Shown here piece by piece: positions 22,945-27,234 of a stretch of DNA of 57,931 bases. Origin of the DNA: an uncultured Spirochaetaceae bacterium (GTDB taxonomy: Bacteria > Spirochaetota > Spirochaetia > Sphaerochaetales > Sphaerochaetaceae); NCBI GenBank assembly GCA_900315435.1, contig OMYY01000018.1:1-57931 (forward strand). Reading direction: 5' to 3'. The translations under genes and the position numbers were made by a program. Every line of letters starts with the position of its first letter. The stretch's first letter is position 1. The notes under the pieces are model-generated. The model did not search any database. It was not told the DNA's origin and was given only the letters and a program-made list of their open reading frames with translations.

Positions 22945-24272
22945 TGTTCTCGTTTGTCTTGCATCCACTGTTCCCGATCGCCCTGTTGTTCATCCTGTTT
23001 TTCCTGAACGTTCCTATCGCCTTGGCGCTGATTGGGTCGTCACTGTATTATTTCACCTTCATCAACACTGCCATCCCGATCCGGATGGTGATCCAGCAGT
23101 TCGTCACCGCCATCGAGTCCTTTCCCTATCTCGCGGTTCCCTTCTTCATCATGCTGGGTTCGGTCATGAACTACTCTGGCATCAGCGAGAAGCTGATGGA
23201 TATGGCGGAGGTGCTCGCCGGTCACTTGAAGGGAGGTTTGGCGCAGGTGAACTGTCTGCTCAGCGCCCTGATGGGTGGCATTTCCGGTTCGGCGAACGCC
23301 GACGCGGCCATGGAATCGAAAATCCTGGTTCCCCAGATGCTCCGCAAGGGATTTCCTCTTGATTTCTCCGCCGCGGTCACCGCGGCATCCTCGGCGGTCA
23401 GTCCGGTGATTCCCCCGGGAAACAACCTGATTCTGTATGCCCTGATCGCCAACATTTCCGTCGGAGACATGTTCTTGGCTGGCTATACGCCCGGTATCCT
23501 GATGACGCTGGCGCTCATGGTCACCACCTACATCATTTCCTCGAAGCGGGGGTACGCCCCGACCCGGGACCACTGGCCCACTCCCAGGCAGATCGGGTCC
23601 CAGTTCGTCGTTTCCCTTTGGGCGCTGGTCATTCCCTTTGTCATCATCCTCGGCATGAGGATGGGGGTCTGCACTCCGACCGAGGCTGGCGGCGTCGCCG
23701 TCCTGTTCGCTCTTGCTGTCGGTCTGCTCGTCTATAAGAAGCTGCGCTGGCATCATGTTCCGCTGATCTTGAAGGAAACGGTCACCAGCACCGGATCGGT
23801 CATGCTGATCATCGCGAGCGCCAAGGTGTTCGGATACTACATGAACTGCGAGCGTATCCCTCAGATTGTCACCCAGGCGCTGATTGCCATGACCGGCAGC
23901 AAGTACGTGCTGCTTTTTGTCATCAACCTCATGCTCCTGTTCATCTGCATGTTCATCGAGGGTGGAGCCGCCTTGGTGATTCTCGCTCCGTTGCTCGTGC
24001 CTGCTGTCTGCTCTTTTGGTGTAGACCCGCTCCACTTCGGTGTCATCCTGATCGTCAACATCATGATTGGAGGCCTGACGCCACCTTTCGGCTCGATGAT
24101 GTTCACCGTCTGTTCCATCGTCGGATGCAAGTTCCAGGACTTCGTGAAGGAGGTCTGGCCGTTCATCCTCGCGCTGCTGGTCATCCTTGTCATGGTCACG
24201 ATGTCGGAGAATGTCGCGCTTGCCATTCCCAAGCTGTTCGGCTACATCCCGAACCATCATTTCTTCGGTTGA
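22944..24272 (+). CDS. dctM: TRAP transporter large membrane subunit (DctM type)
   Basis: A 442-residue permease with about twelve hydrophobic segments. It shows family motifs PFFIMLGSVMNYSGISEKL, ALMGGISGSANADAAMESKI, SPVIPPGNN and the C-terminal GLTPPFGSMMFT. It forms the ion-coupled channel. The ATG 22944 overlaps the dctQ stop; the longer open frame upstream is an overlap with dctQ and is not coding. A terminator follows. Confidence 0.92.
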   Translation: MFSFVLHPLFPIALLFILFFLNVPIALALIGSSLYYFTFINTAIPIRMVIQQFVTAIESFPYLAVPFFIMLGSVMNYSGISEKLMDMAEVLAGHLKGGLAQVNCLLSALMGGISGSANADAAMESKILVPQMLRKGFPLDFSAAVTAASSAVSPVIPPGNNLILYALIANISVGDMFLAGYTPGILMTLALMVTTYIISSKRGYAPTRDHWPTPRQIGSQFVVSLWALVIPFVIILGMRMGVCTPTEAGGVAVLFALAVGLLVYKKLRWHHVPLILKETVTSTGSVMLIIASAKVFGYYMNCERIPQIVTQALIAMTGSKYVLLFVINLMLLFICMFIEGGAALVILAPLLVPAVCSFGVDPLHFGVILIVNIMIGGLTPPFGSMMFTVCSIVGCKFQDFVKEVWPFILALLVILVMVTMSENVALAIPKLFGYIPNHHFFG

Positions 24273-24279
24273 GATGTGG

Positions 24280-24311
24280 TGGGGAACGAGGCCGTACGCC
24301 CCGTTTCCCCA
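24280..24311 (+). terminator. Terminator after the TRAP operon
   Basis: TGGGGAACG-A-GGC pairs with GCC-C-CGTTTCCCCA with a small bulge, eight bases after the dctM stop. The tail is only weakly T-rich. Confidence 0.55.
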
Positions 24312-24331
24312 CATTTCAAACGGAAAGACTT

Positions 24332-24360
24332 TTGACAAAAAAACGGTTTCCGGATAAGGT
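24332..24360 (+). promoter_or_regulatory. Promoter of the third MATE gene
   Basis: TTGACA at 24332-24337, a 17-base spacer and TAAGGT at 24355-24360. Transcription would begin near 24367, just before the leader terminator. No other promoter-like sequence fits between that terminator and the gene. Confidence 0.5.
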
Positions 24361-24370
24361 TTCTTCTGCC

Positions 24371-24454
24371 GTGTGGCGTTTGACGCGTAAATCCAAGCAA
24401 ATTGGATGGACGCGTTTTTTTATGCCTTTGGCTGCGAGGTTCCTGTATGGATGA
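24371..24454 (+). other. Possible leader peptide ORF, 27 codons
   Basis: GTG 24371 opens a frame of 27 sense codons that runs through the whole leader terminator and ends at TGA 24452-24454, inside the MATE start region (ATGGATGA). A ribosome on this frame would melt the terminator stem. The ribosome site is poor and the transcript start may lie only a few bases upstream, so translation is uncertain. Confidence 0.3.
24383..24421 (+). terminator. Leader terminator (attenuator) before the third MATE gene
   Basis: ACGCGT-AA-ATCCAA-GCAAA-TTGGAT-GG-ACGCGT followed by seven Ts: a textbook intrinsic terminator of two stacked 6-base stems. It ends only 25 bases before the MATE start codon, so the gene can be transcribed only by reading through it. 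This points to control by attenuation. Confidence 0.75.
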
Positions 24455-25883
24455 CAATCGTTTTCTTGTGGAGCAACCGGTAGGGCGCCTGATGCACGGT
24501 TATGCGTTGCCCTGCATCATTTCGTTGCTTGTCGGTGCGTTGTACAACATCGTCGACCAGATTTTTATCGCCAATGCCGATTATCTGGGTTCGAATGGAA
24601 ACGCCGCCAATACCGTAGTCTTTCCGTTGACCGTGGTCATGCTGGCGGTTGCCGTCATGATTGGCGATGGGTGCTGTACCTTCGTCAGCCTACAGCTTGG
24701 CTCGGGCAACAAGGAAGAGGCGCATGCTGGTGTGGGCAATGCCATCGTCCTGGTGGTGGCCGCCAGTCTGGTGATGACCATCCTGTTCGCCCTGTTCCGC
24801 GACCAGTTGATCACCGCCTTTGGCGGCAGGGTCAACGCCGAGCTATTCCATTTCGCCCAGGAGTATTTCTCTTGGATCATCGTCGGCATCCCGCTGTACA
24901 TGTTCGGGCAGGCGATGAACGCGATCATCCGTGGTGACGGCTCCCCGAAGTTCGCCATGGCCTGCACGGTTGCCGGCGCGGTCTTCAACATCATCTTCGA
25001 CCCGATTTTCATCTTTGGTTTCCGCATGGGTATGGCTGGAGCCGCCATAGCCACGGTGCTCGGGCAGCTTTTGACCGCAGTCCTGTCCACCTGGTATTTG
25101 TGCCACTTGAAGGCCATCAGATTGGAGAGGCGGAGCTTCCGCCTGAGACCAGCCCTGGACCGACGCATGCTGACCATGGGCATCACCAGCTTCCTCAGCC
25201 AGATTTCGCTGGTTGCCGCCATGGCCGCCATCAACAACATGATCCGAATCACCACTGTCAGAGACCCGTTCTTCGTCCAGCCTGAGTTCTCGCAGATTCC
25301 GATGGCGGTGGTCGGTATCGTCATGAAGGTTTTCCAGATCGTCATCTCCATTGTCGTCGGCATGGCGGCCGGTTGCATTCCTGTTGTCGGCTACAACATG
25401 GGCGCCGGACGCTATGACCGGACCAAAGGCCTTTTGGACAAGTTGTTGTTCTGGGAGGTCGTGGTCGGTGTGGTCGCACTCGTTGTCGTCGAGGTCTTCC
25501 CACGTGCGCTGATCGGCATATTCGGTGCCTCGCACGAGAGCGAGGTCTATACCCAATTCGCCATCAAGGCTTTCCGCATCTATCTTTGCCTGTTGCCGTT
25601 GGCAACCTTGAACAAGGCCGCCTTCATCTTCCTGCAGGCCATGGGCAAACCGATGGCAAGCAGCCTGCTCAGCTTGTTCCGCGAGGTGGTGCTGGGCGTG
25701 GGATTCGCCATCATGCTGCCGATGCTGTTCGGCCTTGACGGGGTGTTGTACGCAATGCCTGCGGCGGACCTTCTGACGGCAGTCGCTTCGATTGCCGTCA
25801 TCATCCTGACCTACCGTGAACTGGGGGTCAGATCGCAGGCTGTCCATCAGGACGGCCGAGTGTCGAGCGTTTCCAAGGACTGA
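24447..25883 (+). CDS. MATE-family efflux transporter (3)
   Basis: A 478-residue transporter with about twelve helices. It belongs to the MepA-like branch: GRLMHGYALPCIISLLVGAL then YNIVDQIFIA, a GDGCCTFVSLQLG loop and AIIRGDGSPKFAM. MepA-type proteins export biocides and tetracycline-like drugs. ATG 24447 follows GAGG by eight bases. The gene sits behind an attenuator-like leader, which fits an inducible resistance gene. Its end overlaps the end of the convergent fourth MATE gene by 56 bases. Confidence 0.88.
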   Translation: MDDNRFLVEQPVGRLMHGYALPCIISLLVGALYNIVDQIFIANADYLGSNGNAANTVVFPLTVVMLAVAVMIGDGCCTFVSLQLGSGNKEEAHAGVGNAIVLVVAASLVMTILFALFRDQLITAFGGRVNAELFHFAQEYFSWIIVGIPLYMFGQAMNAIIRGDGSPKFAMACTVAGAVFNIIFDPIFIFGFRMGMAGAAIATVLGQLLTAVLSTWYLCHLKAIRLERRSFRLRPALDRRMLTMGITSFLSQISLVAAMAAINNMIRITTVRDPFFVQPEFSQIPMAVVGIVMKVFQIVISIVVGMAAGCIPVVGYNMGAGRYDRTKGLLDKLLFWEVVVGVVALVVVEVFPRALIGIFGASHESEVYTQFAIKAFRIYLCLLPLATLNKAAFIFLQAMGKPMASSLLSLFREVVLGVGFAIMLPMLFGLDGVLYAMPAADLLTAVASIAVIILTYRELGVRSQAVHQDGRVSSVSKD

Positions 25884-27234
25884 ATCCCCAAAAAATCCAG
25901 AAGATAAGGCTGGTGAGGATCCAGGAGATTGGGTAGCAGAGCATGATGGTCACCAGACTCGGATGGTGGGGGAAGAAGAAAAGCACCCAGAGGACCCGGT
26001 AGACGCAGACTCCGATGGCGGTGAAGGCTGTGGGGACGACGGCGTTCCCGCAGCCACGTACCGTTCCGGAGAGGATTTCGATCGAGATATAGGTGAGGAA
26101 GGTGGGGGCCACGGTATGGCAGATGACCATGCCGGCGTCGATGACCGCCTCCTCGCTGGTGAACAAATGCAAGAATGTCCTCCCATGGGTCACCAGGATC
26201 AGGCCAAAACCGATGGCGGGTATCATGCTCATGGCGAGGGTGGTCCACATGCCGCGCTTGACCCGCTTGTACTGGCCTGCCCCGTAGTTCTGCCCAGCGA
26301 AAATGGAGATGGCGACTCCGAAGCTGTTGATCGACATCCAGAACATGGCCTCGATCTTGCTATAGGCGGCGTTGCCGGCAATCACGATGGTTCCCAGCGA
26401 GTTGATGGCTCCCTGGATCAGAATGTTGGCTATGTTGTACATGGAACCTTGCAATCCGGCGGGAATTCCGAGCAGCAGCATGCGGCCTAGCAGGGCCCGG
26501 TCGATGGTCAGATCCCGGAAATGGAATTGGAATGCCGCTTCTGGGCCACGGTGGAGCAGCGCTACGACCATGGCCGCGGAAATGGTCTGGCAGAGGATGG
26601 TCGCCACGGCGGCGCCTTTGACTCCCCAGCCGAGAATGGCGATGAAGAAGATGTCCAGGACGATGTTGGAGAGGGTGCCTACGATCAGGCAGTACAGCGG
26701 GGTCTTGCTGTCCCCCATGGCACAGAGGATGCAGGAACCCATGTTGTAGACCAACTGGCTGATGGTTCCAAGAAAGAAGATGTGCAGATAGGTGACCGAG
26801 AGGTCCATGATTTCCTTCGGAGTGCCGATGGCCTGCATGGCCCATCGGCTCACCATGAGTCCGAGAACCATGACGATGGCGCCACTGAGGATCGCCATGC
26901 TCATGGCGGTCTCGATGGCCCGGTGGATGGCCTCTTTCTTCTTGGCGCCGAACTGCTGGCTGATGACGACGCTTGCCCCGTTGGACATGCCTACGAAGAA
27001 TCCGACGAGCAGGTTGACGAAGGTGCTGGTTCCTCCTCCCACCGAGGCGAGCGCCTGGGTTCCGACGAACTTGCCGACGATGATGGCGTCGGTGGCGTTG
27101 TACAGTTGCTGGAAGAAGGAACCGAACAGGATGGGGAAATAGAAATACAGGATCGCACGCGATATCGAGCCTTCGGTAATCGACACCGGGGCGTAGATCT
27201 TGTGCGGGCGTCTATGCAGGGACATGCCGGTCAT
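25828..27234 (-). CDS. MATE-family efflux transporter (4)
   Basis: A 468-residue MATE protein with about twelve helices: RAILYFYFPILFGSFFQQLY and NATDAIIVGKFVG at the start, NGASVVISQQFGAKKKE, and CAMGDSKTPLYCL near residue 160. The start at 27234 lies two bases after the stop of the FAH-family gene, so they form an operon. An in-frame ATG three codons further is possible. The C-terminal codons overlap the end of MATE gene 3 tail to tail; the last 18 or so residues (from about KRSTLGRPDG) lie in that shared stretch. Confidence 0.85.
   Translation of the reverse strand: MTGMSLHRRPHKIYAPVSITEGSISRAILYFYFPILFGSFFQQLYNATDAIIVGKFVGTQALASVGGGTSTFVNLLVGFFVGMSNGASVVISQQFGAKKKEAIHRAIETAMSMAILSGAIVMVLGLMVSRWAMQAIGTPKEIMDLSVTYLHIFFLGTISQLVYNMGSCILCAMGDSKTPLYCLIVGTLSNIVLDIFFIAILGWGVKGAAVATILCQTISAAMVVALLHRGPEAAFQFHFRDLTIDRALLGRMLLLGIPAGLQGSMYNIANILIQGAINSLGTIVIAGNAAYSKIEAMFWMSINSFGVAISIFAGQNYGAGQYKRVKRGMWTTLAMSMIPAIGFGLILVTHGRTFLHLFTSEEAVIDAGMVICHTVAPTFLTYISIEILSGTVRGCGNAVVPTAFTAIGVCVYRVLWVLFFFPHHPSLVTIMLCYPISWILTSLIFWIFWGFSPWKRSTLGRPDGQPAI

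Follow-up and report, generated by a model that had tools for sequence, protein, structure and literature searches.

The window analyzed here, a 57,931-nucleotide stretch of DNA from an uncultured Spirochaetaceae bacterium, contains a MATE-family exporter gene preceded by a promoter-like sequence and, between this and the start codon, a strong terminator, which raises the question of how the gene comes to be transcribed. An earlier note, made from the sequence alone, proposed an attenuator in which a drug-stalled ribosome on a leader peptide would prevent termination. We found every element that it named: TTGACA-N17-TAAGGT at 24332-24360, the terminator at 24382-24421, and the MATE start at 24447, with 25 bases separating the end of the T-run (24421) from the ATG, as well as a 27-codon frame that passes through the stem into the MATE start, running from GTG at 24371 to TGA at 24452-24454 inside a listed open reading frame. 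The attenuator is strongly borne out by the comparisons below; the leader peptide is not. Our best reading is that the leader is an ON-switch RNA built into its terminator, apparently undescribed so far and most likely a riboswitch. It is a member of a conserved family of very small cis-regulatory RNAs, which are candidate transcriptional ON switches. The features of the locus are as follows.

24332..24360, + strand: promoter-like sequence, TTGACA at 24332-24337, a 17-nt spacer, and TAAGGT at 24355-24360 (from the sequence; kept in four leaders)
24367..24399, + strand: conserved RNA core, the candidate aptamer, with its start at about the predicted +1 (match to covariance model R2; row 1 of alignment A6)
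24367..24370, + strand: 5' strand of helix P1 (structure counted on 97 sequences)
24371..24375, + strand: 5' side of the internal loop, GUGUG, consensus GNGUR (alignments A6 and A7)
24376..24386, + strand: P2 hairpin, GCGU-UUG-ACGC (A6 columns 12-14/22-24 for the first three pairs; fourth pair by eye)
24387..24395, + strand: 3' side of the internal loop, GUAAAUCCA, consensus GUAARUCCR (A6 and A7)
24396..24399, + strand: 3' strand of P1 (structure counted on 97 sequences)
24382..24421, + strand: intrinsic terminator, type B, overlapping the 3' half of the core (fold z -4.47)
24447..25883, + strand: MATE-family exporter gene, 478 aa, the putatively regulated gene (Pfam MatE, 117.9 bits; NCBIfam matE, 156.1 bits)

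The element begins at about 24367, ahead of the terminator, and holds conserved bases beyond those that the terminator explains. The core scores 31.8 bits (E 5.6e-5) with R2, a model whose 97 training rows include the window sequence. Its P1 pairs are U24367-A24399, G24368-C24398, and C24369-G24397; the loop-adjacent position is a mismatch (C24370 against A24396), and C-A occurs there in 4 of the 97 cores. The terminator hairpin spans 24382-24416, with stem segments 24382-24388/24410-24416 and 24391-24396/24402-24407 followed by seven T at 24415-24421, and folding of 24380-24428 yielded -18.4 kcal/mol, whereas shuffled versions averaged -8.0 (z -4.47; 0 of 200 shuffles equally stable). The MATE start codon is preceded by GAGG at 24436-24439. 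Because a simple consensus scan of the window returned neither the leader promoter nor the leader terminator, the promoter call needed comparison. TAAGGT agrees with TATAAT at only three of six places, so that on this single sequence the evidence for the promoter is weak, and the AA/GG internal loop presumably concealed the hairpin from the scan.

Two further features flank this region. A strong hairpin at 24270-24318 (z -4.48), 3' of an upstream gene that by eye resembles a TRAP permease, has a similar counterpart in a genome of the same genus (G002) and is probably the terminator of the upstream TRAP-permease-like operon. At about 25828-27210 on the minus strand, the translated reading frame appears by eye to be a second MATE-like gene, convergent to the first; R2, run over the whole genome, found no element ahead of it.

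To place the leader in context, we compared 61 genomes, the source genome included. The MATE protein of G002 is 93% identical to that of the window, and its leader keeps the promoter, the stem, and the T-run. A DNA search of the source genome itself revealed a leader copy of 80% identity (E 1.3e-4) on contig C30, before a second MATE gene whose protein is only ≈31% identical to the window MATE and falls in a different tree group. This copy reads TTGACA-N17-TAAGAT, then GTGTGGCG, then CGCGTAAATCCAAGC within a differently built terminator. G002 likewise has a second such leader, on contig C46, ahead of a MATE gene, and TTGACA-N17-TAAG(G/A)T, stem, and T-run are thus kept in four leaders: those of the window gene, its G002 orthologue, the second MATE gene here, and its G002 counterpart. 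Two other pattern matches were rejected as unrelated, one on contig C45 of G002, in which neither T-run nor stem was seen, and one (G037:C134) lying by eye between apparent tRNA genes. R1, a covariance model built from the four leaders, matched in G077, a spirochaete from a different genus, ahead of a reading frame that is MATE-like (E 0.0095), and also ahead of MATE orthologues in Clostridia; weak R1 matches in G095, G011, G072, and G148 look like chance.

The genome collection holds at least 591 MATE relatives, of which we kept the best 80 as loci. A core pattern written without P1 occurs within 700 nt upstream of the gene in 72 of these 80 loci (the best of at least 591), compared with 3 of 1600 shuffles. 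Together with the four spirochaete cores, the pattern matches gave alignment A6 (98 sequences, 97 distinct), from which R2 was derived. The core of ≈35 nt comprises P1 (columns 3-6/34-37) and P2 (12-14/22-24) around an asymmetric internal loop, GNGUR / GUAARUCCR. Across the 97 cores, 88.3% of cells are paired and the covariation score is 0.483, against 0.186 after shuffling (reached in 0 of 500 shuffles) and at most 0.117 when the structure is slid along the alignment. RNAalifold on its own gives the same pairs, minus 3-37. The P1 column pair 5-35 is G-C in 37 sequences, A-U in 33, U-A in 14, G-U in 7, C-G in 5, and unpaired in 1 (n = 97).

A second alignment, A7, consists of 75 sites found with the covariance model at E ≤ 0.001: 67 of 68 from a draw of clostridial genomes (one, already in A6, was left out) and 8 from a draw of the spirochaete phylum. 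It is 90.4% paired, with a covariation of 0.554 against 0.216 after shuffling, in a set that was chosen with the structure and so leans toward it; in 8 of its 71 distinct rows, a P2 pair that is otherwise C-G has become U-A. Base conservation in A6 is in part imposed by the search pattern; still invariant in A7 are G7, G9, UAA, and the last two C. Two clostridial-draw sites retained in A7, L242 and L244, are chance-like. What lies upstream of these protein genes is a conserved secondary structure with covariation, as in riboswitches.

R2 finds only two sites in the source genome, both ahead of MATE genes. Among the close relatives (the best 80 of at least 591), the element is present in 77 of the 80 loci and a predicted terminator that uses part of the core comes after it, with 105 sites in all, every one on the coding strand and 1 to 900 nt upstream. 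The three loci that lack a site include one (L127) for which 280 nt of upstream sequence was available. The terminator, whose lack of conservation among orthologues the earlier note had named as evidence against its attenuator, is conserved, although in one 59%-identical spirochaete orthologue (G035) the upstream bases inspected hold no leader of this kind and R2 has no match at the locus (L003). R2 found no site in 18 other spirochaete MATE loci examined, out of 28. R2 sites at E ≤ 0.05 occur in 24 of the 25 genomes behind the examined loci. The clostridial draw, an even draw of 391 genomes from the class to which G172 belongs (a Lachnospiraceae genome that carries locus L077 and was part of the draw), gave 59 genomes with sites at E ≤ 0.001 and 68 sites in total, and the spirochaete-phylum draw gave 17 of 392 genomes at E ≤ 0.05, some of them by chance. 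In this phylum draw, matches in G592, G675, G625, and the near-identical G780 and G796 were set aside as chance-like, with no exporter gene among the reading frames shown.

Two element copies are present in 28 loci, and in 15 of the 80 loci (the best of at least 591) they are no more than 150 nt apart. Such close pairs ahead of a single MATE gene, an arrangement reminiscent of tandem riboswitches, occur in L064, L065, L066, L081, L085, L093, L094, L098, L103, L106, L107, L108, L116, L122, and L124.

A MATE tree of 41 rows (a 42nd, a fragment, was dropped) places the window protein inside a supported clostridial MATE group, together with scattered spirochaete rows, which suggests that MATE genes were transferred repeatedly, although several branches are long and placements within this group are unsure. 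The C30 protein lies elsewhere in the tree; its branch is long, and its neighbors are clostridial and spirochaete rows that bear the element.

The relation between core and terminator points to how such an element might act. A T-run follows the core in 97 of 97 cases, compared with 392 of 970 when the downstream part is shuffled, and core plus downstream part folds at a mean of -23.8 kcal/mol, whereas shuffling of the downstream part raises this to -9.7, the native energy being lower in all 97. In 62 cores, the downstream arm pairs with the 5' half (GUGURGC), in 24 with the 3' half (GCGUAARUCC), in 9 with both, and in 2 with neither (n = 97); the folded stretch of the last two ended at an early T-run, and the window terminator belongs to the 3'-half group. 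Since the terminator can use either half, it does not account for the conservation of both. Under a loose test of mutual exclusion between aptamer and expression platform (at least four pairs with one half), terminator and core overlap in 95 of 97 cores and also in 722 of 970 downstream shuffles, so that the stability of the terminator in the fold energies, rather than this count, carries the evidence. The core fold and the terminator probably exclude each other, which would make the element an ON switch.

The position of the core relative to the promoter is also regular. Promoter-like pairs (at least 9 of 12 positions) lie upstream of 65 of 96 cores, compared with 177 of 1920 shuffles, and in 60 of the 65 scored promoters, the -10 box ends 3 to 7 nt before the core window. 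In the window itself this distance is 4 nt, with a TAAGGT that is too poor to count among the 65. This nearly constant distance puts the probable start of the RNA on the first base of P1 or close to it.

By BLAST, the 68 clostridial-draw sites precede 39 MATE genes, some only 25 to 30% identical to the window MATE, 7 CarD-like genes, 1 gene for a 79-aa protein, and 21 genes that remained unclassified. The CarD-like genes lie directly 3' of the element (L143, L219, L231, L234, L236, L238, and L241); CarD is an RNA-polymerase-binding family. Pfam names cover part of the 21, the remainder having no clear Pfam name or lying outside the scan, and include MFS (L210, L235, L237), an ABC exporter (L243), UvrA (L217), TetR (L222), DUF2798 (L194), and a cytidylate-kinase-like protein (L240). 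L189, L220, and L226 encode secreted-looking proteins with a copper-amine-oxidase N domain and an esterase-type domain. Outside the clostridial draw, the start of an F1Fo-ATPase gene cluster and a VEG-like gene follow sites. Exporters predominate among the genes after the element, and the diversity of the neighbors does not indicate a single ligand; the esterases suggest, short of showing, a plant-derived compound.

Several of these loci have features of their own. The elements before the L189, L220, and L226 genes have a P1 of AUC/GAU, perhaps a hint as to the ligand. An element-like site in L174 (G166:C4; 34.7 bits) lies ≈0.37 kb before an ATPase_gene1 frame at what appears to be the start of an F1Fo-ATPase cluster. 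The 79-aa protein is often encoded between two element copies before a MATE gene (L087:2658-2894, L072:855-1091, and similar loci), so that its gene has a copy to itself. Neither Pfam, above the cut-off, nor NCBIfam matches it. The AlphaFold model of the protein (mean pLDDT 82) is strand-helix-strand-strand and gave no Foldseek match at E ≤ 0.001, and in a second structural look, the best Z was 5.8, with dodecins at Z 4.1 to 4.3 among many unrelated folds.

We propose the following mechanism for the window leader. The polymerase would start at about 24367, and the first ≈33 nt would be the core, with P1, the asymmetric loop with its nearly invariant bases, and P2. In the absence of an effector, the next ≈20 nt would pair with part of the core, in the window with the 3' half, forming the terminator and leaving the MATE gene off. 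An effector, most likely a small molecule exported by the MATE protein, would settle in the internal loop and hold P1 and P2, in which case no terminator would form and the MATE gene would be transcribed. We put at about even the chances of a fuller account, in which the family is an undescribed riboswitch class of ≈35 nt, fused to its promoter and embedded in its own terminator, widespread among Clostridia and passed with exporter genes to spirochaetes, whose ligand is a compound that is toxic, drug-like, or of plant origin and which turns on MATE, MFS, and ABC exporters along with detoxifying enzymes.

The best-surviving alternative, which we regard as unlikely, is that the same RNA is a site for a protein, either an antiterminator or RNA polymerase itself, and that the protein or a stress at the level of the polymerase stops termination. 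The near-constant spacing between -10 box and core window (3 to 7 nt for 60 of the 65 promoters scored) speaks for this and could reflect an effect on RNA polymerase itself; CarD-like genes after 7 of 68 sites point the same way. The P1/P2 fold is also weak by itself, which counts against the riboswitch reading as well. By nearest-neighbor energies, it averages -1.7 kcal/mol, where the best folds of these 97 cores average -4.95, and is the best fold of few: at least two P1 pairs appear in the best folds of 21, both P2 pairs in 21, and both helices in 9. Short 5' pieces of the two leaders of the source genome are no stabler than shuffles (80 of 200 and 123 of 200 equally stable), and the spirochaete 5' half is able to form a small hairpin of its own. 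If the P1/P2 fold is right, it needs nonstandard pairs, a ligand, or a protein. Against a protein, the element has apparently been transferred, being present in two phyla and ahead of distant MATE subfamilies, and a switch that is self-contained would move more easily; in addition, its most conserved bases are concentrated in one internal loop, as in an aptamer.

A very improbable alternative is that the element belongs to, or varies only slightly from, the guanidine-IV (mepA) or Gd4v riboswitches. The gene class and the logic are alike, and guanidine-IV is reported in Spirochaetes (PMC7736828). However, no hairpin lies upstream here and the core starts at about +1, so that the two-hairpin pseudoknot plan with the 3' hairpin as terminator is not what we find; by eye, the spacing of the guanidine-IV loop bases G62, G66, U67, and G72 also misfits the consensus. 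Slightly less probable still is a plain terminator preceded by a DNA operator, in which case a repressor or activator would bind the conserved bases over the transcription start. The element does sit over the start site, and its inverted repeats could be operator arms, but the P1 arms switch to any Watson-Crick pair, as at pair 5-35, a freedom that a DNA-binding protein would hardly tolerate. The leader peptide of the earlier note, a drug-stalled ribosome on a short frame blocking termination, has almost nothing left in its favor: the 27-codon frame does stay open through the stem, but in the second copy of the same genome, the frame from this GTG is only five codons long, the half-to-half length over 97 cores takes all three values modulo 3 (37, 35, and 25) so that no frame through both halves is conserved, no ribosome-binding site was seen ahead of the frame, where a core window starting 4 nt past the -10 box would leave almost no room, and what is conserved is bases and pairs.

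The riboswitch reading, if confirmed, would place this element among the smallest riboswitch-like RNAs known and would provide a sensor for the real substrates of MATE exporters in gut anaerobes, most of which still await an answer on this point. With its position at the transcript start and two terminator layouts on one core, it would also be a good system for studying transcription decisions made within a few dozen bases.

We compared the element with known RNA families. Rfam 15 at gathering score returned no family in the window, from a set of models that may lack guanidine-IV; for the leader region alone at E ≤ 10, the only match was of ten bases on the opposite strand. Among 18 relatives, Rfam 15 gave five matches (TPP, lysine, tRNA), all away from the leaders, and among 8 relatives at E ≤ 5, it gave six sub-threshold matches, one of them over the L100 leader (Atu_C9, 16.1 bits against a threshold of 40, E 4). 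No description of the element was found in the literature searched, and an earlier sighting in supplements or alignment repositories is possible; PMC11109978, PMC8632094, and PMC6429828 gave no relevant passage on MATE, CarD, multidrug, efflux, or exporter.

One of the closest known systems is guanidine-IV (mepA motif / GGAM-1), which, according to PMC7736828, PMC12186494, and PMC11611296, also has MATE genes downstream, is a terminator-based transcriptional ON switch, and is reported in several phyla, Firmicutes and Spirochaetes included. As described in PMC7736828 and PMC9788692, it has two hairpins and a pseudoknot, constructs of ≈95 nt, and a terminator stem within the binding structure. 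These descriptions set the two apart: two hairpins with kissing loops or a pseudoknot over ≈88 to 95 nt in guanidine-IV, but here a single nested hairpin of ≈35 nt where the transcript is predicted to begin. The Gd4v motif is similarly orphan, gut-enriched, and terminator-linked with MATE among its genes, but differs in its guanidine-IV-like two-hairpin pseudoknot and in a transaminase as its main gene (PMC9788692). A precedent for sensing of aromatic compounds across a broad range is the yjdF (azaaromatic) riboswitch (PMC4793209), which serves another gene. In its proposed working, the element resembles the HMP-PP riboswitch (thiS motif), which PMC6478431 describes as a very small aptamer in an intrinsic terminator, an ON switch with mutually exclusive folds, a short decision window, and a terminator fold that dominates the aptamer fold. 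That riboswitch controls thiamin genes through a P1 stem with a possible pseudoknot, whereas the element here, with no thiamin gene after it among the genes that could be named, precedes exporter and other genes.
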